Shown: piece after piece, positions 31,284-43,536 of the stretch
Layout: each line of letters starts with the position of its first letter
How positions within the stretch are numbered: the stretch's first letter is position 1
From: an uncultured SAR116 cluster alpha proteobacterium
GTDB lineage: Bacteria > Pseudomonadota > Alphaproteobacteria > Puniceispirillales > Puniceispirillaceae
Assembly: GCA_902625725.1 (NCBI GenBank)
Contig: CACOCY010000005.1
Span: 62,001 to 126,000, forward strand
DNA: 64,000 nt
Reading direction: 5' to 3'
The notes under the pieces: model-generated
Told to the model about the DNA's origin: nothing
Databases searched by the model: none
The model's input: the letters and a program-made list of their open reading frames with translations, nothing else
Made by a program: the position numbers and the translations under genes

Positions 31284-31940
31284 TCAAGTTTTGTCAGCTT
31301 TCCGGAATTTTTGCTTCGGAAATTTTGAGGCAAATTCCTCCAGTGACTCAATAGACAACTTGCCAACCGCGTCCCATTGTTTTTTGTTATATGTCTCACT
31401 TTCCAACTCAGATACAAACGAATCATTTAATCTGTTCCCAAGGTTAAATAACCCGGAAGCAAGCGTAATTTCAATTACTTCCCTGTCTGAGAACTCAGAT
31501 TTCATTTTATCTGCAAGCTCTTGGTTATCGCGAGATTTATTAAGAGTAACGGCCTCTGCCCATTCAAGAGCCAATTTCTCACGCCTTGTAAAAAGAGATG
31601 ACGTTTTGTAATCATCCGTTGCTAATGATATGATTTGATCATCGCTCAGGCCAATTCCCTTCGCATAAATTCTTGTATGAGAAGTACAATAATTACATTC
31701 ATTAGTCATTGAGGTTTTTACACAAGCTAACCCTCGTAACTTTACATCAGAGTCAGAACCTAGGCCATCTTGACGAATGGAAACTAAAAACCCTAGCCAC
31801 CATCTTGCAATTTCTGGAGTGTGTGTAATTAATATTTTCATGAGATTTGATGTTCTACCCAAAAACTGTTCTGCCGCGTCAAAGATTTCCTTTTCTGACG
31901 TCGTGTAATCTTCTTTTTCCAAATTAGAAACGCGTTGCAT
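31284..31940 (-). CDS. Carboxymuconolactone decarboxylase/AhpD-like protein
   Basis: 218 residues from ATG 31940, preceded by AGAGG at about nine bases. The segment NECNYCTSHTRIYAKGIGL carries the CxxC plus His signature of AhpD-like redox proteins of the carboxymuconolactone decarboxylase family. Such proteins act as peroxidase partners or uncharacterised oxidoreductases. It is followed one base later by the sugar dehydrogenase gene, an unusual pairing of a cytoplasmic thiol protein with a secreted dehydrogenase. Confidence 0.8.
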   Translation of the reverse strand: MQRVSNLEKEDYTTSEKEIFDAAEQFLGRTSNLMKILITHTPEIARWWLGFLVSIRQDGLGSDSDVKLRGLACVKTSMTNECNYCTSHTRIYAKGIGLSDDQIISLATDDYKTSSLFTRREKLALEWAEAVTLNKSRDNQELADKMKSEFSDREVIEITLASGLFNLGNRLNDSFVSELESETYNKKQWDAVGKLSIESLEEFASKFPKQKFRKADKT

Positions 31941-32107
31941 GTTACATACCTCTTTATATTTAATCAGACCAAAACAACGTAATAGTGTCAATTAGTTAAG
32001 GATAAAGAAACTAACTCAAATTGGTAAAATTACGCATAAAAATTGACTTTTAGAGTATCGCATATAACAGTTAAACGGAATGATAATTGCTTGGAATGTT
32101 TAATCTT

Positions 32108-33838
32108 ATGACAAAAATTACTTTTAACGACGGTATGAAAATTTACTGGGATCACCCAATTGAGATGGACGATGGTGTAATATTGAGAGCAGATATTTTT
32201 TGCCCTTCTAAAAACGGCAAACATCCAGTGATTATGACTTATGGAGTTTATGGTAAATGGCTCGACTTTAGGGATGGATATAAGCCACAGTGGGATATCA
32301 TGGTGGATAAGTTTCCCGAAGTTATGAATAACTCTTCTTGTAAATATCAAAATTGGGAAGTTGTAGATCCTGAAAAATGGGTTCCTGATGGATATGTGTG
32401 TGTTAGAATAGATTCAAGGGGCGCGGGACGCTCACCAGGTTATCTGGACCCTTTTTCGCCCCGAGAAACAAAGGATTTTTATAATTGTATTCAATGGGCT
32501 GCAGAACAAGAATGGTCAAACGGGAAGATTGGTCTAAACGGTATTTCGTACTATGCTATAAACCAATGGCAAGTTGCAGAACTGCAACCCCCTAACCTTG
32601 TGGCAATGTGTATTTGGGAAGGGGCACATGATTTATATAGAGAATGGGCATATCATGGCGGTATATATTGTACATATGGGGGTAATTGGTATAAAGGCCG
32701 ATGCATACCGAGACAGCATGGTTTGGGAGTAAATGGATACAAAGCGCGGATTAATGGTGACTATGTATCGGGGCCTCTCACTTTATCCAATGAAGAGCTT
32801 GGCTACAATCGAACTAATATGAATAGTGATATGTCTAAGAATAAATTGGTTACAGACCAGTATTGGCAGGACAGAATACCAGATTTTTCAAAGATTACCG
32901 TACCTGTTCTATCAGCTGCTAATTGGGGCGGCCAATCGCTTCATTCTCGAGGAAATTTTGAAGGGTTTAACAAAATTGCGTCAGCAGAGAAATGGCTTGA
33001 AGTTCACGGATTAGAACATTGGACAGAGTTTTATACAGATTATGGAATAAATATTCAGAAAAGGTTTTTTGGACATTATCTTAAAGAGGAAGATAATAAT
33101 TGGCAAAATGAGCCAAGAGTAACGCTTCAAGTTAGATACCCAGGAGACAAATTTGTTGAGAGAAAAGAAAATGAATGGCCTTTGGAACGTACAAAATGGA
33201 CCAAGTTATATTTGACACCATCAGGTTCACTTTCATCTGAGGAACATAGATTTGAAAAAACAAAAATTGAATATGATGGTTTTGGTGAAGGAGTAACGTT
33301 TATAAGTGAGCCATTAGCCAGTGAGACAGAAATAACAGGTCCTATGGCGTCAAAATTATTTGTCTCATCTGAAACAGTTGATGCTGATATGTTTTTAGTT
33401 GTGCGCGTGTTTACCGAAGATTTCAGAGAAGTCACGTTCAAAGGGGCTTTGGACCCTAATACGCCTGTAGGGCAAGGGTGGCTTCGTGCGTCCCATAGGA
33501 AGCTTGATCAAAAAATGAGCAAACCCTATAGACCTTATTACGCACATGATGAAATCCAGCTTTTGCAGCCCCAAAAGATTTATGAGTTAGACATTGAAAT
33601 CTGGCCCACATCAATAGTTATTCCCAAAAAATATAGAATAGGACTCACAGTCAGGGGTAGGGATTATGTTAACCAATCAGGTGGAGGGAGTACGCTTCCG
33701 AATATGAATAAGTTTTCAGGTTGTGGGCCATTTCTCCACAATGACCCAGATGATAGGCCGCTTGACGTATTTGGAAAAAGGATATCACTTCATTTTTCAG
33801 AAAAAGAAATCCCATACTTGATGCTGCCTATCATATAA
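32108..33838 (+). CDS. CocE/NonD family hydrolase
   Basis: Alpha/beta hydrolase with a C-terminal jelly-roll domain, about 576 residues, similar in length to cocaine esterase and X-Pro dipeptidyl-peptidase relatives. The nucleophile Ser is in LNGISYYAINQW (about residue 150) and a catalytic His is likely in HGLEHWTEFY. There is no signal peptide. Start is uncertain among TTG 32087, ATG 32096 and ATG 32108; no clean ribosome site decides. It acts on esters or amides; the substrate is unknown. It stands alone. Confidence 0.85.
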   Translation: MTKITFNDGMKIYWDHPIEMDDGVILRADIFCPSKNGKHPVIMTYGVYGKWLDFRDGYKPQWDIMVDKFPEVMNNSSCKYQNWEVVDPEKWVPDGYVCVRIDSRGAGRSPGYLDPFSPRETKDFYNCIQWAAEQEWSNGKIGLNGISYYAINQWQVAELQPPNLVAMCIWEGAHDLYREWAYHGGIYCTYGGNWYKGRCIPRQHGLGVNGYKARINGDYVSGPLTLSNEELGYNRTNMNSDMSKNKLVTDQYWQDRIPDFSKITVPVLSAANWGGQSLHSRGNFEGFNKIASAEKWLEVHGLEHWTEFYTDYGINIQKRFFGHYLKEEDNNWQNEPRVTLQVRYPGDKFVERKENEWPLERTKWTKLYLTPSGSLSSEEHRFEKTKIEYDGFGEGVTFISEPLASETEITGPMASKLFVSSETVDADMFLVVRVFTEDFREVTFKGALDPNTPVGQGWLRASHRKLDQKMSKPYRPYYAHDEIQLLQPQKIYELDIEIWPTSIVIPKKYRIGLTVRGRDYVNQSGGGSTLPNMNKFSGCGPFLHNDPDDRPLDVFGKRISLHFSEKEIPYLMLPII

Positions 33839-34771: not shown

Positions 34772-35407
34772 TTAGCTTTTTTTTGATATTAAATTAACTA
34801 TCTCTTTTAGTGAGGTTATTGAAAAATCTGCTGTTGTCTCTAGGCATCCACGAACATTTACTGCGGCAACCATAAGTCCCGCTTTCTGCGCCGAGATGAC
34901 GCCCGAATTACTATCTTCAACTGCTAAAATTTCATATGGCTTAAGCCCTAATTTTTTAGTGGCCACTTGATAAGGAGCTGGATCTGGTTTCCCTTTTTTT
35001 ACATCGTCGAGAGAGAGGGAAAAATTTAATATTTTTGATACTCCAAGTGCAGTGAGATTAATGTCTACTACAGACCGATTAGAGTTTGATACAGCTGCTT
35101 GCATAACTCCAAGAACGTGCAGTTCATTTATAACTTCGAAGGCGTATGGAGTTAAAGTTAAAGTTGAACTATTGGCAAAATAAAAACTATTGATTTGGTG
35201 TGTCCATTCATCAAATTTAAGGCTAGCAGGGAAGCGTTTTCGTAGTTCCTCCCAAACACCATAAAGATTGACACCTATAAAATATTCATCTGGTAGGTCA
35301 GAAATATCAATATTGTATTTTTTGCAAACCAATATGAGCGATTTTAAATGAAGAGGCTCGCTATCTACCAGTGTTCCATCTATATCCCAGGCTACTGCCT
35401 TTATCAT
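34772..35407 (-). CDS. HAD-family phosphatase/beta-phosphoglucomutase-like (subfamily IA)
   Basis: 211 residues. HAD motifs are all present: DIDGTLVDSEP (nucleophile and acid Asp, about residues 8-18), a Ser in AVSNSNRS, KKGKPDPAPY (Lys) and VEDSNSGV (acidic pair). The arrangement is that of beta-phosphoglucomutase and sugar-phosphate phosphatases. It is the last gene of a minus-strand operon of DeoR regulator, BtpA-like protein and FGGY kinase, three bases after the kinase stop, so its substrate is probably a sugar phosphate of that pathway. Confidence 0.87.
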   Translation of the reverse strand: MIKAVAWDIDGTLVDSEPLHLKSLILVCKKYNIDISDLPDEYFIGVNLYGVWEELRKRFPASLKFDEWTHQINSFYFANSSTLTLTPYAFEVINELHVLGVMQAAVSNSNRSVVDINLTALGVSKILNFSLSLDDVKKGKPDPAPYQVATKKLGLKPYEILAVEDSNSGVISAQKAGLMVAAVNVRGCLETTADFSITSLKEIVNLISKKS

Positions 35408-35410
35408 AAT

Positions 35411-36904
35411 TTATACTTCAACTAAGGCTTGATATGTTTCACGGAAAATGCGGTAACCTTCGTTATAAAGTTCAGCATTTTGGACATTTGGTTTAATACG
35501 ATTACCATAAGAAACAAAAGCTGTTACACCAACCCAGTCATCACTCATTTTTGATCCAATAACTGCCATCCAAGCTGCCCCAAGGCAAGAACCAGGGTGC
35601 CCTTTTAACAACTGAATAGGTTGTTGCAATATATCAGCACAAATTTGCATCCAAAGATGTGAATTGGAACCACCATCTGAGGCTAGAAAACGTGTAGTTG
35701 GATGACCCATTTCATTAAAAACTTCTATGTGGTGGCGGAATGCATATCCAAAACCTTCAAGCAGTGCACGCCACATATGACGTAGGTCATGGTTTAAACT
35801 GATGCCACGAATAATACCGCGGGCATTTGGGTCATGTATTGGTGTTTTTTCACCAAGGAAATAGGGGATAATCTGAACACCTTCTGCCCCGGGTTGTGTT
35901 TCGGCAGCAATTTTGTCTAGATATTGATGTGGCGTAAGCCCACATGACTGCGCATTCGCTTTCTCACCCTTAGCCAGCTTATCAACGAACCAATTAAGAG
36001 CAGACCCACCGGATGCCATACAACCATTTGGCATATAGAGACCAGGTATTAAATGAAGGTCAAGAAACATACGTGGGTCAGGTTGTAGTCTTTCAGTAGC
36101 AATCATAATATCGGTCGCTCCACCAAACTTAAGCAAAACGTCACCCGGTTTGTTCACTCCAGCAACATAAGCTGATGCTATATGGTCAGCTGCGCCGCCA
36201 ACTACCAATGTACTTTTTGCAAGTCCAGTGGCTTTTGCTGCGTCGTCATTTATTTTCCCGAGGATAGAATGTGAAGCTATTTTTCGTGGTATAGTAGAAC
36301 GTGGGATGTGTCCTATTGAAATCAAGTCATCGGAAATCAAACCAGTAGCAGTGTCAACAAATCCTGCTTCAAGTGCCCAGTTTTGTTCGATTGCCTTTTC
36401 ACCAGTCAGTTTCCAATTGATGAAGTCGTAAGAACCAAAAACTGTATTTATTTGCTGAAATATTTCCGGTTCGTGTTTTTCTATCCAACGCAATTTTGCA
36501 GCAACTAATTGTTGATTTATACCGTTTCCTGTTTTTTTAATAAATTCGTTTTCTTCAAACTCTGACTTTAATTCCAGTACCTGTTCACCACAACGGCCGT
36601 CACTTTGCTGAATGGAGGGTCGGAGGACTTTACCTAATGAGTCAAGCAATACCACAGCCGGCAGCATCCCTGTTACACCGATAGCATGGACTTCAACTGG
36701 ATCAACTTTGGCTTTTGATATAAGCTCTTGAATGATTTCAACAACATTTTTCCACCATTCATCTGGATTTTCCTCCGCCCATCCTGGGAATGGGGAGTTT
36801 AGTTTTACAGGTCGCGTGGCTTGAGCCAAAATTTTGTCAGGTAGACAGAGTAGAATGCCTATTGTAGATGTGGTTCCAATATCGAGTCCAATTATATAAT
36901 TCAT
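35411..36904 (-). CDS. FGGY-family carbohydrate kinase (xylulokinase-like)
   Basis: 497 residues, full length for the family. The N-terminal LDIGTTSTIGILL loop, PGWAEENPDEWW, and GGAADHIASAYVAG (adenosine or phosphate region) place it among FGGY kinases, nearest by eye to xylulokinases rather than GlpK. It would phosphorylate a ketose or polyol formed by the SDR dehydrogenase of the locus. The start overlaps the BtpA-like gene stop by four bases (ATGA). The exact sugar is not predictable by eye. Confidence 0.87.
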   Translation of the reverse strand: MNYIIGLDIGTTSTIGILLCLPDKILAQATRPVKLNSPFPGWAEENPDEWWKNVVEIIQELISKAKVDPVEVHAIGVTGMLPAVVLLDSLGKVLRPSIQQSDGRCGEQVLELKSEFEENEFIKKTGNGINQQLVAAKLRWIEKHEPEIFQQINTVFGSYDFINWKLTGEKAIEQNWALEAGFVDTATGLISDDLISIGHIPRSTIPRKIASHSILGKINDDAAKATGLAKSTLVVGGAADHIASAYVAGVNKPGDVLLKFGGATDIMIATERLQPDPRMFLDLHLIPGLYMPNGCMASGGSALNWFVDKLAKGEKANAQSCGLTPHQYLDKIAAETQPGAEGVQIIPYFLGEKTPIHDPNARGIIRGISLNHDLRHMWRALLEGFGYAFRHHIEVFNEMGHPTTRFLASDGGSNSHLWMQICADILQQPIQLLKGHPGSCLGAAWMAVIGSKMSDDWVGVTAFVSYGNRIKPNVQNAELYNEGYRIFRETYQALVEV

Positions 36905-37707
36905 CCTCGTAACCTATTTACCACATCCATAAATCGTTTTACACGTTCACCATCGACTTTGTTCCACGTATCGCCGTCAATTTTAAAATGTGTGCCTATG
37001 ATGCAACCCGATGCAACCGACATCACGTTAGTTACGTTGTCTATATTAACGCCCGTATTGGCAAAAACCGGCACTAAATCTCCAACAGCTTGGGCAACTT
37101 TTTTAAGCTCTGAGCTATCCGCAGGTTGACCTGTGATTGGACCTGACACAAGAATGGCGTCAGCTAGTGACGAAAACACAGCGGACTTTGCCCTTAATTC
37201 AATATTGCGCTGGTCTAAGGAATGGGCAAATTCAGCATTTATGTTAAACAACATTTTCATATCTTTCTTGTTTAGACTTGAACGAAGCCGACTTGCTTCT
37301 GCACAGTTTGGAGCCCAAACACCCATGTCAGATGCAAATACCCCAGTGAAGATTTCACGAACAAATGATGCCCCCGTCGCAGAACCGATAGCGACAGTAG
37401 CAGTTGGGTCCCACAAATAGTTTACCCCAAATGGCACTTTCAATATCGGCTTTAGCGTTGATATAATCATTGTCATACCTGCTATGCTTTCGGGAGTTGC
37501 TTTAAGAACATATGGCCGATCATTTTCATTGCCAAACATTATCGAATCAACACCTCCAGATTGCAGTTTTTCAATATCTCTTGACACATCTTCAATTAGC
37601 TTATCTATTCCGCCGTCAGCGTCAAAAAGCGGCGAGCCTGGCAGAGCACCAATGTGCGCCATAGAAATCACCACCTTTTTTTTCTCTCCAAAGAAGTCAA
37701 AAACCAT
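36901..37707 (-). CDS. BtpA/SgcQ family protein (TIM-barrel)
   Basis: 268 residues, normal for the family. Recognisable segments are MAHIGALPGSPLFD near the N terminus, GGVDSIMFGNENDRPY, and the C-terminal GCIIGTHFKIDG, which looks like a phosphate-binding end of a TIM barrel. BtpA was named for a role in photosystem I stability in cyanobacteria, and SgcQ is an uncharacterised sugar-operon relative. Here, wedged between a DeoR regulator and a sugar kinase with both ends overlapping, it is most likely a sugar-phosphate enzyme. AAGGA lies eight bases before the ATG. Confidence 0.85.
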   Translation of the reverse strand: MVFDFFGEKKKVVISMAHIGALPGSPLFDADGGIDKLIEDVSRDIEKLQSGGVDSIMFGNENDRPYVLKATPESIAGMTMIISTLKPILKVPFGVNYLWDPTATVAIGSATGASFVREIFTGVFASDMGVWAPNCAEASRLRSSLNKKDMKMLFNINAEFAHSLDQRNIELRAKSAVFSSLADAILVSGPITGQPADSSELKKVAQAVGDLVPVFANTGVNIDNVTNVMSVASGCIIGTHFKIDGDTWNKVDGERVKRFMDVVNRLRG

Positions 37708-38527
37708 TAGAAAATTCCTTTTTCATTTTAGTTACAACACTCGATGCAATTAATATTTCCACACCAGCCGCTTTCAGCGATTTCAGCAAAGGGTCAGGCG
37801 GTGTTTGTTCTGTTATAAGCATGTTAATATTGGAAAATTCAGATATTCGAGCAACCGATACTCTGCCAAATTTAGAACTATCCATCAGAACAATATTGCG
37901 CTTGGATTGCAAGACCATTGCAGATTTTATTTCTGTTTCCTCTATCGAATAATCGTAGAAACCGTCTTCCGCCAATCCCGAAACACCAATAAAAGAGATG
38001 TCGAAGTGGAAGCGTCTTAAATCCTCAATTGCTTTTGCGCCCACTATGGATGGCTCTGAACCCTGCACTGCTCCACCAGGCATGTAAACTTTAGCACCTG
38101 CTTGTCCAAGATGACGGGCAATTGGTAGTGATGTGGAAAAAACTCTAATTGGCAACCCTTTGATACGTTCCGCCAGAGCAAAAACGGTTGAGCCAACGTC
38201 CAGTGCAATTGTTTGATTTGGTTCAATCTGTTGTAATGCCAAAGTTGCAATGGCGAATTTCGCCCTTTGGTTTAAAATTGCTCTGCGGTCAAGACTAGGC
38301 TCGATGGTATCAAACTTTTTTGCGGAGGGACTATCAGGAAGAATTGCAGCTCCGTGTGTGCGAGCTAGAAGCCCCAGCTCTTCCAAAAAATCAAAATCAC
38401 GGCGAATGGTCATTTCAGACGTGTCACAGAGCTTAGCGATCATAGGAACTGTTACCAGCCCGTCTCGCTCAAGGGAGGTAAGAATCATATCGCGGCGCTG
38501 AGATGCATGAAATTTTTTAGAGGACAT
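37697..38527 (-). CDS. DeoR/GlpR family transcriptional regulator
   Basis: 276 residues from ATG 38527, with AAAGGA eleven bases upstream. The N-terminal winged helix is clear (TVPMIAKLCDTSEMTIRRDFDFLEE is its span, about residues 26-50) and is followed by the sugar-phosphate-sensing domain with ALDVGSTVFALAE. It probably represses both the minus-strand operon and the divergent importer, with release by a phosphorylated sugar of the pathway. The last 11 bases overlap the BtpA-like gene. Confidence 0.9.
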   Translation of the reverse strand: MSSKKFHASQRRDMILTSLERDGLVTVPMIAKLCDTSEMTIRRDFDFLEELGLLARTHGAAILPDSPSAKKFDTIEPSLDRRAILNQRAKFAIATLALQQIEPNQTIALDVGSTVFALAERIKGLPIRVFSTSLPIARHLGQAGAKVYMPGGAVQGSEPSIVGAKAIEDLRRFHFDISFIGVSGLAEDGFYDYSIEETEIKSAMVLQSKRNIVLMDSSKFGRVSVARISEFSNINMLITEQTPPDPLLKSLKAAGVEILIASSVVTKMKKEFSNGF

Positions 38528-38670
38528 AAATTGTTCCTTTATCGCTATTTTTAACAATAAAAATCATAAACAAACAAAATTCTCAACCTTTTTATACAAA
38601 AACCCCATTTTTTTGTTGAATATTGTTATATTATGTGAATTAATTGTGAGATGTTGGAGCCAAAGAAATA
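38528..38670. promoter_or_regulatory. Divergent promoter region of the DeoR-regulated locus
   Basis: 143 bases between the regulator gene and the SDR gene, very AT-rich, that must carry both promoters. Visible elements are a TATATTAT -10-like box near 38630 and related A/T motifs (AAACAAACAAAA near 38570-38580 and TTTTTTTGTTG near 38610-38620) in opposite orientation, which could be DeoR-type half-sites. No clean palindrome stands out, so operator positions are tentative. Confidence 0.45.
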
Positions 38671-39441
38671 ATGAATGTATTACCAAAAACAGCTCTTGTA
38701 ACAGGAGGTGCAACAGGTATCGGTCTTGCAAGTGCACACGCTTTCTCGAAAGCTGGGTATAATGTTGTCCTCACAGACCTAGAACAAAAAGCTGCACAAT
38801 CTGCCGCTGATAGGATAATGGGCCCGACTTTAGCGACAAAACTCGATGTGTGTGATCAAACTTCTATTAATGTTGCCTTTAAAGAGGTAGAGAGAGTTTT
38901 TGGTAAAGTTGACGTTTTGCACGCTAATGCCGGAGTGTCAAGTATGAAACGTGCTTTAGAGCTCACCGAAGAGGACTGGGATTTTAACTTCAACGTAAAT
39001 GCCAAAGGTGTTTTTCTTTCTAATCAGGTTGCAATACGTCATTTTCTCAGGCATCAAAATAAGGGAGTGATTGTGAATACTGCGTCTTTAGCTGCTAAAG
39101 TAGGTGCCCCACTTTTGGCGCATTATTCGGCATCAAAATTTGCTGTGTTAGGATGGACTCAGTCTCTAGCTCGAGAACATGCTAAGGATGGAATACGGGT
39201 TAACGCAGTTTGTCCTGGCTTTGTTAAGACAGGAATGCAAGATCGTGAGGTCAAATGGGAGGCCGATTTGCTTGGCTCCACTCCAACTGAGGTAGTTCAA
39301 TCTTACATTGAACAAACTCCACTTGGCCGGATCGAGACTGCAGAAGATGTTGCTGATGTTGTCGTTTTTCTTGCCTCCGACAAAGCTCGGTTTATGACAG
39401 GACAAGGCATCAACGTAACTGGAGGCGTGTACATGGGATAA
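38671..39441 (+). CDS. Short-chain dehydrogenase/reductase (polyol dehydrogenase candidate)
   Basis: 256-residue classical SDR. Cofactor loop GGATGIGLA (about residues 11-19), NAG in HANAGVSS, active-site Ser (NTASLAA), and YSASK (Tyr and Lys, about residues 151-155). An Asp in VVLTDLEQ after the second strand suggests NAD rather than NADP. It is first in the plus-strand operon with a sugar importer, resembling sorbitol or mannitol operons where an SDR oxidises the imported polyol to a ketose. The specific substrate is not known. Confidence 0.88.
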   Translation: MNVLPKTALVTGGATGIGLASAHAFSKAGYNVVLTDLEQKAAQSAADRIMGPTLATKLDVCDQTSINVAFKEVERVFGKVDVLHANAGVSSMKRALELTEEDWDFNFNVNAKGVFLSNQVAIRHFLRHQNKGVIVNTASLAAKVGAPLLAHYSASKFAVLGWTQSLAREHAKDGIRVNAVCPGFVKTGMQDREVKWEADLLGSTPTEVVQSYIEQTPLGRIETAEDVADVVVFLASDKARFMTGQGINVTGGVYMG

Positions 39442-39478: not shown

Positions 39479-40720
39479 ATGAAAAAACTAAAATTAAGCG
39501 CAGCTATGGCAGCACTTGCTTGGGCTACAATTAGTACGTCCCAAGTCGCGCAAGCTGGTGAGATTAATATTATTATGGAAGAAGTTCCTGACTATGATAT
39601 TGTTGCAAAGCTAACTGATCAATTTACTGAGCAGAATCCTGGGATCACAGTAAACTTTGACGCTATGCCTTTCGATGCGATGCGCGATAAAATTCTAACT
39701 TCATCATTAGCACCTTCAGCAACCTATGATGTTATTATAATCGATAACCCTTGGACTGACGAATTTGCAAGAGCTGGGTTCTTAGAGCCGTTAGACACAC
39801 TTATCTCTGGCCAAGATGGCTATGCATACGAAGACTTTGTTCCAGCCCTTGCTGATATAAGCAAGGTTGACGGGTCTATTTATGGAGTCCCTTATTATAA
39901 TTATGCTCTTGGTCTAATTGTTCGTCAGGATATTTTTGACTCGAAAGGTTTAGCAATTCCAAAGACAATTGAAGATTATATGAGCGTTGTAAAATCATTA
40001 ACGACTAATGATATGTATGGTGCTGCCATGCAACCCCAAAAAGGTTACAAAATTATGGAGGAATGGAAAAACTGGTTATATGCCAACGGTGGTGAATTGT
40101 TTGATGATTCTGGCAATGTGATTATAAATAATCAAGCTGCTGTTGATGCGCTAAATCAGTATATTGAGACCCATAGTCAGGCTGCCCCACCTAATTCTGC
40201 AAACTGGGGCTTTGACGAAGCCTTGCGTTCCGTATCCTCAGGGAAAGCTGCTACAATGCTCTCTTACAACTGGATGCTTCCAGCGTTGAATGCAAAAGGT
40301 GGAATGTCTGGCGACCTTGCAGGTAATTTTACTCTTCATCCAGTGCCAGGCGGCAAGTCTGTGTTAGGGCTTTGGTCATGGGGTATTACCTCAAACTCCA
40401 ACAATAAAGATGATGCCTGGACCTTCATTTCATGGATTTCTAGTCCAGAGGTTGCAAAACAACGAGCTATTATGGGTGGTGCGCCAGTCCGCAATAGTGT
40501 AATGAATAGTGCAGAAGTATGGGAGAAGGGTTATGGTAAGGCCTATTATTCTGCGTTAGCTGACATTCTGGATGGCTCAGCACCTTTGTCATCCGGAAAT
40601 AACGCTGAGGAATTGATTGAAATAGTTGGCACTGAATTAAGTGCAGCTGTTACTGGTCAAAAAAGTGTTAAAGATGCATTAGATGCAGCTGCAAATGGCG
40701 TGGAAAGAGCAATTAAATAA
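39479..40720 (+). CDS. ABC sugar/polyol transporter, substrate-binding protein
   Basis: Family 1 extracellular solute-binding protein, 413 residues, with a signal peptide (about residues 1-26, ending AQA). EEVPDYDIVAKLTDQFTEQNPG is the start of the first lobe (about residues 34-55). GGGAG precedes ATG 39479. It is followed by two permeases and an ATPase, so the importer is complete. A strong hairpin immediately follows the stop. The family covers sugars, polyols and glycerol phosphate; next to an SDR and FGGY kinase a sugar alcohol is the most likely ligand. Confidence 0.88.
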   Translation: MKKLKLSAAMAALAWATISTSQVAQAGEINIIMEEVPDYDIVAKLTDQFTEQNPGITVNFDAMPFDAMRDKILTSSLAPSATYDVIIIDNPWTDEFARAGFLEPLDTLISGQDGYAYEDFVPALADISKVDGSIYGVPYYNYALGLIVRQDIFDSKGLAIPKTIEDYMSVVKSLTTNDMYGAAMQPQKGYKIMEEWKNWLYANGGELFDDSGNVIINNQAAVDALNQYIETHSQAAPPNSANWGFDEALRSVSSGKAATMLSYNWMLPALNAKGGMSGDLAGNFTLHPVPGGKSVLGLWSWGITSNSNNKDDAWTFISWISSPEVAKQRAIMGGAPVRNSVMNSAEVWEKGYGKAYYSALADILDGSAPLSSGNNAEELIEIVGTELSAAVTGQKSVKDALDAAANGVERAIK

Positions 40721-40759: not shown

Positions 40760-41632
40760 ATGTTAATGAATGCAGCTCAAATGCACATTAAATATAAACT
40801 AATTTTACCATTGGTTTTTCTCCTATTTGGGATAATGCTATATCCTTTGTTTTTTTCTTTATGGCTATCGCTCCAAGATTATCGTCTCACAAGGATAAAT
40901 GACGTTCAGTTTGTAGGCCTTGAGAATTTTGGCTTAATTGCTACTGACCCAAGCTTTTTAAATGCAATGGGAAATACCATAAGTTTCGTGGTTGGTGCTG
41001 TAATTTTAGAGCTAATTTTGGGACTTTCACTTGCCCTTCTTATTCAGAAGTTAGTCATTTTTCGGGGAGCTATTCGATCAATTCTGCTTGCCCCCATGTT
41101 TATAACTCCTATCGCAGTAGGTTTAATGTTTCGTTTTTTGCTCAACTCAGAAATTGGTATAATCCCTTTTTATCTCTTAAAGGTTGGTATTTCTTTAGAC
41201 TGGTTTGGACCGGGATTAGCGCTGTTTTCGATAGTTTTAATCGACGTATGGCAGTGGACACCATTTATGCTTCTAATGTTTCTTGCAGGCTTGGAGGCTT
41301 TGCCAAAAACTCCCTTTGAAGCTGCTCGCGTTGATGGTGCAGGACGATGGTTAACCTTCTCTTCCATTACGTTACCGCTCTTACGGCCCGTTATAGTCGT
41401 GGCACTAATTATAAGAGCACTGGATGCATTTAAAGTTTTTGAATATGTGTTTGCTATCACCCGAGGTGGACCAGGTAATTCTACAGAGACAATTATGTAT
41501 TATATTTATCAAACAGGTTTTCGTTTTTTCCGTATGGGTGAAGCTGCTGCAGCCTCAATTTTGTTGATTATATTTATCTTAATTTTCGTTATTTTAATCG
41601 TGAACTTATCACGACCAAAGGTAATAAAGTGA
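40760..41632 (+). CDS. ABC sugar/polyol transporter permease 1
   Basis: CUT1-type inner-membrane permease, 290 residues, six predicted helices. The EAA loop is PFEAARVDGAGRWLTFSSI (about residues 183-201). The start is ambiguous: ATG 40760, 40766 and 40781 are all in frame, none has a ribosome site, and the first two directly follow the hairpin stem. Its stop overlaps the next gene start (GTGA). It forms the membrane channel with permease 2. Confidence 0.87.
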   Translation: MLMNAAQMHIKYKLILPLVFLLFGIMLYPLFFSLWLSLQDYRLTRINDVQFVGLENFGLIATDPSFLNAMGNTISFVVGAVILELILGLSLALLIQKLVIFRGAIRSILLAPMFITPIAVGLMFRFLLNSEIGIIPFYLLKVGISLDWFGPGLALFSIVLIDVWQWTPFMLLMFLAGLEALPKTPFEAARVDGAGRWLTFSSITLPLLRPVIVVALIIRALDAFKVFEYVFAITRGGPGNSTETIMYYIYQTGFRFFRMGEAAAASILLIIFILIFVILIVNLSRPKVIK

Positions 41633-42453
41633 TTATTTCATTTGAAAATCAATTGTCACGGTTTTTGGGCACAATAGCAATTTTTACTGCAATCATAGTG
41701 GTTCTATTTCCTTTTTTTTGGATATTTCTAGAGTCTTTAAAACCACCTTCTCTGGGGGGAAGACCAGACGTATGGTTTTTTGAACCAACTTGGGAAAATT
41801 GGAGCGAGATAGTGCTTAATAGTGGCGTGCCACTCAATATATTGAATTCGTTTTTTATCGCCTTGATTACGGTGGTAATCTCATTGATATGTGGAGCACC
41901 TGCGGCCTACGCGTTTTCTCGTTTTCGGGGCTTTCATGGAGCAAGGTACTCAATACTAGCAGCAGAGATGATGCCACCTGCAATTTTAATCCTTCCACTT
42001 TTCTTACTTCTTTATAAATTGGAGTTGATAGATAGTCGTATCGGAGTAATCATTGCGCATCTCACCTTCGTGGTGCCAGTAATCACGTGGTTTCTGATTG
42101 GATTTTTCGACGAAGTACCAAAAGACTTGGAAGACCAGGCTATGATTGACGGTTACACACGGTTTCAAGCCTTCTATAAAGTGATACTTCCGATAGTAAG
42201 GCCTGGTCTTGGAGCGGCTGCTGTCTTCGGTTTTGTTCTTTCATGGAATGATCTGTTTTATTCGTTGTTACTCACTGGAGCCGAGAGTCGTACATTGCCG
42301 GTTGCAATTGCCAGTTTCTGGACATTTCGAGGTATTGAACTGGGCAAAATGGCCGTTGCCATTCTTATTGCAGTAATTCCAGTCCTAATTCTATCCTATT
42401 CAATTCAGAAGCATCTTATAAGAGGTATTGGAGGTAGCGGTGTCAAATATTAA
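41629..42453 (+). CDS. ABC sugar/polyol transporter permease 2
   Basis: CUT1-type permease, 274 residues, with six helices. The start is GTG 41629, overlapping the stop of permease 1 by four bases. The EAA loop is present in a slightly variant form (LEDQAMIDGYTRFQAF, about residues 166-181), with Gln replacing a small residue. The N-terminal helix is followed by the usual short periplasmic segment, without the large insert seen in AglG. Confidence 0.87.
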   Translation: MIISFENQLSRFLGTIAIFTAIIVVLFPFFWIFLESLKPPSLGGRPDVWFFEPTWENWSEIVLNSGVPLNILNSFFIALITVVISLICGAPAAYAFSRFRGFHGARYSILAAEMMPPAILILPLFLLLYKLELIDSRIGVIIAHLTFVVPVITWFLIGFFDEVPKDLEDQAMIDGYTRFQAFYKVILPIVRPGLGAAAVFGFVLSWNDLFYSLLLTGAESRTLPVAIASFWTFRGIELGKMAVAILIAVIPVLILSYSIQKHLIRGIGGSGVKY

Positions 42454-42468
42454 GGAGAATAGTTGGTA

Positions 42469-43536
42469 ATGGGCCAAGTCACTTTCAAAAACTTAAGTAA
42501 GTCCTTTGGTCCTGCAAACATTATTGATGGGATTAACCTAGAGATACGTAATTCAGAGTTCTTAGTATTGCTTGGACCCTCCGGATGCGGTAAATCGACA
42601 ACTTTGCGCTTGCTTGCTGGTTTGGAAACAGTCTCAAGTGGAAAAATCCTTATTGATGGCAAGGATGTTACCGAACTTGAACCTCGTGAAAGAGATATAG
42701 CTATGGTTTTTCAGAATTATGCGCTTTATCCAACAATGACAGTTGCACAAAATATTGGTTTTGGACTCAAAGCTAAAAAAACCCCACCTAAATTAATAAA
42801 AGAAAAAGTTAACGATATAGCCGAATTATTAGGACTAACGCATCTTTTAAATAGAAAACCCAATTCTCTTTCAGGTGGACAACAGCAAAGAGTGGCAATT
42901 GGCAGGGCTATAGTTCGAAAACCAAAAGTTTTTCTGTTTGACGAACCACTGTCCAATCTTGATGCAAATTTGCGTCTAGAAATGCGGGCAGAAATAATGA
43001 AATTGCATCGAGAATTGGGTGCAACCACCATTTTTGTGACTCATGATCAGGAAGAGGCTATGGCAATGGCCGATAGGATTGTGATTATGGATAATGGACT
43101 GATTGAGCAGGTTGGAACGCCAACAGAAATTTATTTTCAGCCAAAAACGCGCATGGTAGCAGGATTTATTGGCAATCCGAGCATGAATTTTATAGAGGGA
43201 CAAATTTCTAAAAATTGTGAGATCAGCATGGCAATTGGAAGGATTAAAGTGAATATCCCCCCAAATTCTGGCAAGGATGTAGAAGTAGGAATTCGACCAG
43301 AAAAAATCAAACTCGATGAAAGAAAAAGCAAACCAACTGAAATTAAAGTTAAAGTTTTGGTGACAAATGTTGAACTGCTGGGACCTCGTGCGGTCGTGAA
43401 AATGCAGCATGAGAGTGGTCAGCAACTTACTTCTGTAGTAGATCATAATGAAATGGATAAATATAGGGTAGGGACTAAAATTAGTGTTTCTTTGGCCAGT
43501 CAGGCTCTTCATATATTTCCAAGAATTAGAGATTAG
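42469..43536 (+). CDS. ABC sugar/polyol transporter ATP-binding protein
   Basis: MalK/UgpC-type ATPase, 355 residues from ATG 42469, with AAGGAG about eleven bases upstream. Walker A is GPSGCGKST, signature LSGGQQQRV, Walker [12 protein letters not shown], switch His in VTHDQEE, and a C-terminal regulatory domain follows. It completes a five-gene plus-strand operon (SDR, binding protein, two permeases, ATPase) divergent from the DeoR operon. Confidence 0.92.

Follow-up and report, generated by a model that had tools for sequence, protein, structure and literature searches.

In relatives of a SAR116 alphaproteobacterium, an operon which contains a gene of the BtpA family is linked to genes for the breakdown of ureides and N-heterocycles. 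This linkage is the new part of our results, and it gives the family (PF03437) a concrete, testable substrate class. The substrate of BtpA is likely to be a phosphorylated compound. Our main reading, to which we assign a probability of about 0.4, is that BtpA cleaves a phosphorylated conjugate into a sugar phosphate and a nitrogen-rich aglycone. This reading starts from what is found in the window or in its relatives: the family, the operon, the predicted fold, the conserved residues and the linkage. The sugar and the aglycone named below would belong to the proposal itself. The window is the whole stretch of 64,000 nt that we have analyzed, from a genome of 2.0 Mb in 39 contigs.

The features of the locus are shown in Table 1. 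The operon has the order DeoR-BtpA-FGGY-HAD, with BtpA as the second gene. The BtpA gene shares 11 nt with the DeoR gene and 4 nt with the FGGY kinase gene, and the gap between the kinase and HAD genes is 3 nt. The first-pass annotation of this DNA had described overlaps with a regulator and a kinase, as we have now measured. The BtpA open reading frame codes for 268 amino acids from an ATG start, its N-terminus is aligned with the starts of 51 orthologs. A 99% identical ortholog is found in a SAR116 record. For the DeoR gene, the listed TTG may not be the true start, which could lie 30 nt further downstream. The SDR gene and the four genes of a sugar ABC transporter run divergently from the operon; the intergenic region between the DeoR and SDR genes is probably a control region, and its inverted repeats are possible DeoR operators. 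Beyond the HAD gene, the region 31284-33838 holds a CocE/NonD hydrolase gene (32087-33838) and a reading frame which we have named AhpD-like by eye. Genes of these two types also adjoin the operon in three other loci (L013-L015).

Table 1. Features of the BtpA locus, in positions of the window.
Feature	Position	Strand	Remarks
HAD-family phosphatase	34772..35407	-	Motif DIDGTLVDSE intact
FGGY-family sugar kinase, xylulokinase-like	35411..36904	-	
BtpA/SgcQ family protein (PF03437)	36901..37707	-	TIM barrel with predicted phosphate site at strands 6-8
DeoR/GlpR-family regulator, AgaR-like	37697..38557	-	Listed start TTG
AT-rich divergent intergenic region	38558..38670		Imperfect inverted repeats at 38552-38629
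SDR-family dehydrogenase	38671..39441	+	Divergent from the DeoR gene
ABC transporter sugar-type substrate-binding protein (SBP_bac_1)	39479..40720	+	
ABC transporter permease, UgpA-like	40760..41632	+	
ABC transporter permease, second	41629..42453	+	
ABC transporter ATPase, UgpC/MalK type	42463..43536	+	

The first-pass annotation had also placed a BtpA-family gene at this position. In fact, the protein matches the family along nearly its full length, with 246 bits for PF03437 (cut-off 30) and 247 bits for TIGR00259, "BtpA/SgcQ family" (cut-off 153). A photosystem role, already discarded in the first-pass annotation, can be ruled out: the score with NF045918, the equivalog for BtpA in photosystem I biogenesis, is 149.9 bits, far below the cut-off of 400. 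The name of the family is misleading, and the linkage evidence corrects it. PF03437 occurs in archaea, in cyanobacteria, in E. coli K-12 and in many bacteria that live on plants or in the ocean. Within the genus, six of ten genomes contain a full-length BtpA gene, counting that of the window; in the other members of the family and order that we have searched there are none, or weak partial matches. We have found no proven reaction for PF03437 or for any sequence or structure relative of BtpA. In the open-access literature searched, neither titles nor the openings of abstracts deal with this operon or with an enzymatic function for this BtpA family, and there is no paper on BtpA with an FGGY kinase or on questin oxidase with biuret.

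The ortholog set contains 80 loci, some of them cut by contig ends. Genes in the relatives have been labelled by tblastn and codon scoring, these labels depend on the chosen reference proteins; unlabelled reading frames have been identified in part. An FGGY gene is present in 72 of the 80 loci. A gene following BtpA has been called in 75 loci, and in 62 of these it is FGGY, on the same strand. At the thresholds used, DeoR is found in 75 of the 80 loci, SDR in 65, the ABC ATPase in 62, the binding protein in 61 and HAD in 52. The DeoR-BtpA-FGGY arrangement is conserved far beyond chance. Kaistia-type loci (L029, L038, L051, L056 and L071) keep BtpA and DeoR, and have lost FGGY and SDR. A phylum search gave 15 divergent BtpA loci: in ten of them a kinase or PTS gene lies no more than 1.5 kb away, and three more have an FGGY-like gene in a longer stretch. 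This regular company of a kinase or PTS, like the kind of barrel described below, speaks for a phosphorylated substrate of BtpA.

A xylulokinase pathway has been rejected. The FGGY kinase scores 321.7 bits, below the XylB cut-off of 380, and it has GMLPA at the position of the QMHG motif of E. coli XylB, which binds the sugar. Its closest solved structure is 3ifr (592 bits). To our knowledge, no FGGY kinase acts on nucleosides. We should also note two other contexts of BtpA. Four alphaproteobacterial loci (L162, L170, L171 and L172) combine BtpA with an M42 peptidase, as SgcX in E. coli, and an FGGY-like kinase; ribokinase-type genes are present in three of the four. A third context (L121, L093, L097, L099-L101 and L106-L108) has a ribokinase-like kinase, joined in one locus or another by TenA-family and glutamine-amidotransferase-like genes and, in L121, by a phosphotriesterase-like gene.

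Whole-genome searches cover 49 ortholog-bearing genomes, which come from 50 of the 80 loci (L025 left out), with one genome list used throughout. Near-duplicate loci and some others were dropped, among them L040, L078, L083 and L091, which do have adjoining Isoch, FADox or Questin genes. The BiuH-like subfamily (at least 70% identity) is present in 14 of the 49 genomes. Its gene lies 2.9-12.5 kb from BtpA in 13 of these carriers, and on another contig in the last one; the naive expectation within 15 kb, which assumes uniform placement and ignores kinship, is 0.07. Questin_oxidase genes are found in 23 of the 49 genomes, 18 of which have a copy within 15 kb of BtpA, for an expectation of 0.14 on the same assumptions. 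Distant BiuH-like genes (below 70% identity) are mostly found elsewhere: four of the 47 copies, in two genomes, lie within 15 kb. The background of Questin_oxidase is 10 of 385 genomes of the class, with 5 of the 10 over the cut-off. The 20 other PF03437 copies in the same genomes have no BiuH-like or Questin gene within 20 kb. Each linkage corresponds to at least six state changes in the BtpA tree. The clusters show several gene orders, which differ between groups. An independent-pairs test between both linkages had few pairs.

Most ortholog loci, SAR116 ones included, contain no ureide genes, and 34 of the 49 genomes have no BiuH-like gene within 15 kb. A SAR116 genome of the same genus (G458) shows no BiuH-like and no Questin match, and another SAR116 genome (G000) has AtzF matches at amidase level only. 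Since the linkage is to a neighbourhood, BtpA and the ureide modules could serve different compounds.

The enzymes encoded in these clusters are of several kinds. For example, plasmid pRLN4 of R. leguminosarum carries, on one strand and with gaps of at most 160 nt, genes for a binding protein, two permeases, an ATPase, a BiuH-like hydrolase, a second isochorismatase-like hydrolase, AtzF, BtpA and FGGY. This run is apparently one operon. Its first hydrolase scores 245 bits against the solved biuret hydrolase 6azo, and its allophanate hydrolase AtzF passes the cut-off (684, cut-off 511). In L133, the FGGY, HAD and BiuH-like genes overlap. The BiuH-like subfamily is below the BiuH equivalog cut-off (276 vs 370 bits). 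According to an excerpt of a paper on BiuH (PMC5806882), the triad is Asp36-Lys142-Cys175, and Gln215 binds the far amide of biuret. The BiuH-like protein of L116 has Asp36, Lys142 and Cys175 at the numbered positions. The subfamily has Phe or Tyr for Gln215, so its substrate is probably a substituted or a different ureide; biuret as the direct product is weakened by this change.

The wider clusters add an FAD oxidoreductase, weakly similar to steroid monooxygenase (E 1.6e-4). In Methylocapsa (L129, 16170-18731, + strand) it is fused to Questin_oxidase in a reading frame of 853 residues, which supports a joint action of these two proteins, neighbours elsewhere. Other members are amidohydrolases near AtzC and cytosine deaminase (6nbo, 282 bits) and a member of the gamma-glutamyltransferase family; among its matches is 5hft, which we take to be the oxamate amidohydrolase HpxW. 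The Roseivivax cluster (L128) has AtzE-like amidases, a protein with the C-domain of allophanate hydrolase and an SBP_bac_5-type transporter. In L162, DeoC (over its cut-off) and an isomerase-fold protein adjoin BtpA.

Two Rhizobium clusters (L168 and L169) have a further amidohydrolase between the other two. In L168 it scores 617 with the 8-oxoguanine deaminase model NF006055 (cut-off 532), and both genomes have an over-cut-off match at that cluster position. Nevertheless, 8-oxoguanine has been rejected as the aglycone: 27 of the 49 genomes carry a deaminase over the cut-off, but it is beside BtpA in two of them (within 20 kb in three), and two of its 32 copies lie within 15 kb of BtpA, most copies being elsewhere in the genomes. 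As the deaminase is mostly unlinked to BtpA, we retain 8-oxoguanine as an example only. SAR116 genome G000 has a homolog of this deaminase on another contig (655 bits). Two genes of the deaminase family (G459:C43:202329-203666 and G476:C1:180296-181627) have one in-frame stop each.

The AlphaFold2 model of BtpA, made with 52 sequences, is an eight-stranded barrel (pLDDT 89.3, pTM 0.90), with the (beta/alpha)8 fold of phosphate-binding TIM barrels. The nearest PDB chains in Foldseek are thiamine phosphate synthase (ThiE), HisF, CutC, GGGPS, RPE, DHPS and TrpC; the ThiE/HisF match has E 1e-8 and probability 1.00. Z values in VIA-align are about 18-20 overall. MJ1099, hexulose-phosphate synthase, ThiE and KDPGal aldolase range from 20.4 to 19.5, within about one Z unit, so none of them can be singled out as nearest. 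A profile of 18 diverse BtpAs has tryptophan synthase alpha (5ey5) as its best match (E 5e-6), at strands 6-8, where the phosphate-site glycines G189, G193 and G219 are conserved. The catalytic residues of tryptophan synthase alpha are the Glu and Asp of strand/loop 2, and the strand-2 stretch of BtpA gives no positive-scoring alignment with it. These results agree with the first-pass description of a TIM barrel with a phosphate-binding end, and the model suggests that BtpA is likely to be a barrel of the phosphate-binding kind, with its predicted site at strands 6-8. Fold similarity alone shows no function.

Residues have been surveyed in the 81 sequences of the ortholog set and in 22 others. 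H18, N60, G94, N96, R117, G189, G193, G219 and K242 are conserved; most of them are invariant, and each of the others deviates in one or two sequences only. E61, W99, D100, E118, N155 and E159 are common to the FGGY- or PTS-linked groups; in 13 divergent BtpAs, mostly PfkB-linked, the same positions usually read H, A, N, N, D and K. Such a block swap at the barrel mouth would be expected of different substrates or chemistries on one scaffold. The polar residues of the mouth are invariant over the 81 orthologs. Judged from the alignments, an invariant mouth which is swapped as a block between subfamilies is an active-site pattern. Across the whole family (81 + 22 sequences) there is no invariant carboxylate. 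The strand ends bear H18, N60-E61, N96, R117-E118, N155/E159 and N217.

The neighbour genes in relatives point to a sugar conjugate with a nitrogen-rich moiety, which favours a cleaving role for BtpA. BtpA is the only core protein without a step; the sgc operon of E. coli and L162 already hold an epimerase- or isomerase-type protein, and L162 also has DeoC, so that the step still to be filled there is cleavage. For this reason we have put cleavage first. The locus would be a catabolic operon for an imported sugar or polyol conjugate with, at least in relatives, a nitrogen-rich moiety (a ureide or a fused N-heterocycle). The ABC transporter would import the conjugate, and the SDR would oxidise a hydroxyl or act on the sugar after its release. 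The FGGY kinase would phosphorylate the sugar or polyol end, BtpA would bind the phosphate at strands 6-8, and its carboxylate set E61/D100/E118/E159 would release the aglycone from the sugar phosphate. HAD may remove the phosphate or clear a by-product, and DeoR may sense a sugar phosphate.

Purines, pterins and flavins all contain the N-C-N-C-N skeleton of biuret. A compound of these types linked to a sugar or polyol would need a step to release its nitrogen-rich part. In an excerpt of another paper (PMC7948467), triuret is proposed to arise from oxidative breakdown of purines or urate, and its degradation proceeds through biuret. A more specific version of the cleavage proposal, which we regard as doubtful, would make the FGGY-linked BtpA clade a putative new class of phosphate-barrel lyase or hydrolase, freeing a nitrogen-rich heterocycle or ureide from a sugar or polyol phosphate after an unusual FGGY step. 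If true, an undescribed pathway would start with this clade, with an oxidised purine, pterin or flavin as examples of the aglycone; a flavin oxygenase, a Questin_oxidase-type protein, deaminases, a biuret-type hydrolase and allophanate hydrolase would act later. If the substrate class suggested by the linkage is right, soil and marine bacteria would have a further route to take nitrogen from sugar-linked heterocycles or ureides.

BtpA might also be a sugar-phosphate isomerase or epimerase: the SDR would convert a polyol to a ketose, FGGY would phosphorylate it and BtpA would feed the pentose phosphate pathway, with the ureide genes as a separate module. In its favour, polyol operons usually consist of SDR, FGGY, HAD and ABC genes, as this one does. 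The nearest folds include RPE and other barrels for ribulose phosphates, and SgcE, the neighbour of SgcQ, carries an epimerase annotation. The 34 genomes without a nearby BiuH-like gene are likewise consistent with this idea. Nevertheless, we consider it rather unlikely. An epimerase- or isomerase-type protein already adjoins BtpA in L162 and SgcQ in sgc, the ureide genes are fused with the operon in R. leguminosarum and L133, and the His/Asp metal site of ribulose-phosphate 3-epimerase is not found at the strand ends of BtpA. An aldolase, cutting the ketose phosphate made by FGGY into two carbon fragments, would agree with the kinase-barrel gene order, which fits a kinase-aldolase pair, with the proximity to KDPGal aldolase in VIA-align (Z 19.6) and with K242, the only lysine invariant in the whole family. 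However, K242 sits after strand 8, while the Schiff-base lysine of KDPG aldolase is at the end of strand 6, where a comparison with class I (KDPG-type) aldolases shows no conserved lysine in BtpA; a DeoC-family aldolase already adjoins BtpA in L162. An aldolase is quite unlikely in our opinion.

The first-pass annotation had favoured an aldolase, isomerase or glycosidase, to be checked by structure prediction and comparison with aldolase active sites. The barrel is indeed predicted and the sugar-phosphate barrel class was right in outline, but neither the strand-6 aldolase lysine nor the RPE metal site is seen. We regard as highly improbable that BtpA is a non-catalytic, phosphate-sensing partner which stabilises another enzyme. 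This would resemble cyanobacterial BtpA, whose role has been redefined, according to an excerpt of a review (PMC11449065): it binds glutamyl-tRNA reductase (GluTR) and stabilises it. On the other hand, the window protein falls short of the cyanobacterial equivalog, and the invariant, block-swapped polar mouth argues for catalysis.

The cleavage proposal may be compared with several known systems. E. coli SgcQ, annotated as "putative nucleoside triphosphatase", belongs to the same family, with about 46% identity to the window BtpA and the same mouth residues E61, D100, E118 and E159; it differs at D63 and T192. The sgc operon also has a DeoR regulator. Its phosphoryl input comes from a PTS, in place of ABC and FGGY, it includes the M42 peptidase SgcX and the RPE-like SgcE, and it has no ureide gene. 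Pseudouridine catabolism by PsuK and PsuG follows the same logic as our proposal, phosphorylation and then cleavage of the glycosidic bond: the kinase acts, and the base is then released from the nucleoside phosphate. However, PsuK is of the PfkB type and PsuG is not known to be a BtpA-type protein. The catabolism of biuret and cyanuric acid (BiuH, AtzF) is represented in the clusters of relatives by BiuH-like and AtzF genes, but there the BiuH-like gene comes with BtpA, FGGY, the FAD oxidoreductase and Questin_oxidase. Cyanobacterial BtpA is in the same Pfam family; its equivalog is not matched (150 vs 400), and the genes of the window operon include no photosynthesis genes. Tryptophan synthase alpha, PRAI, HisF and ThiE cleave or rearrange N- or aryl-linked sugar or glycerol phosphates, or build C-N bonds. 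Their identity to BtpA in fold alignments is about 10-18% and their catalytic residues find no match in the alignments, but they have in common with BtpA the fold and the phosphate-site half.
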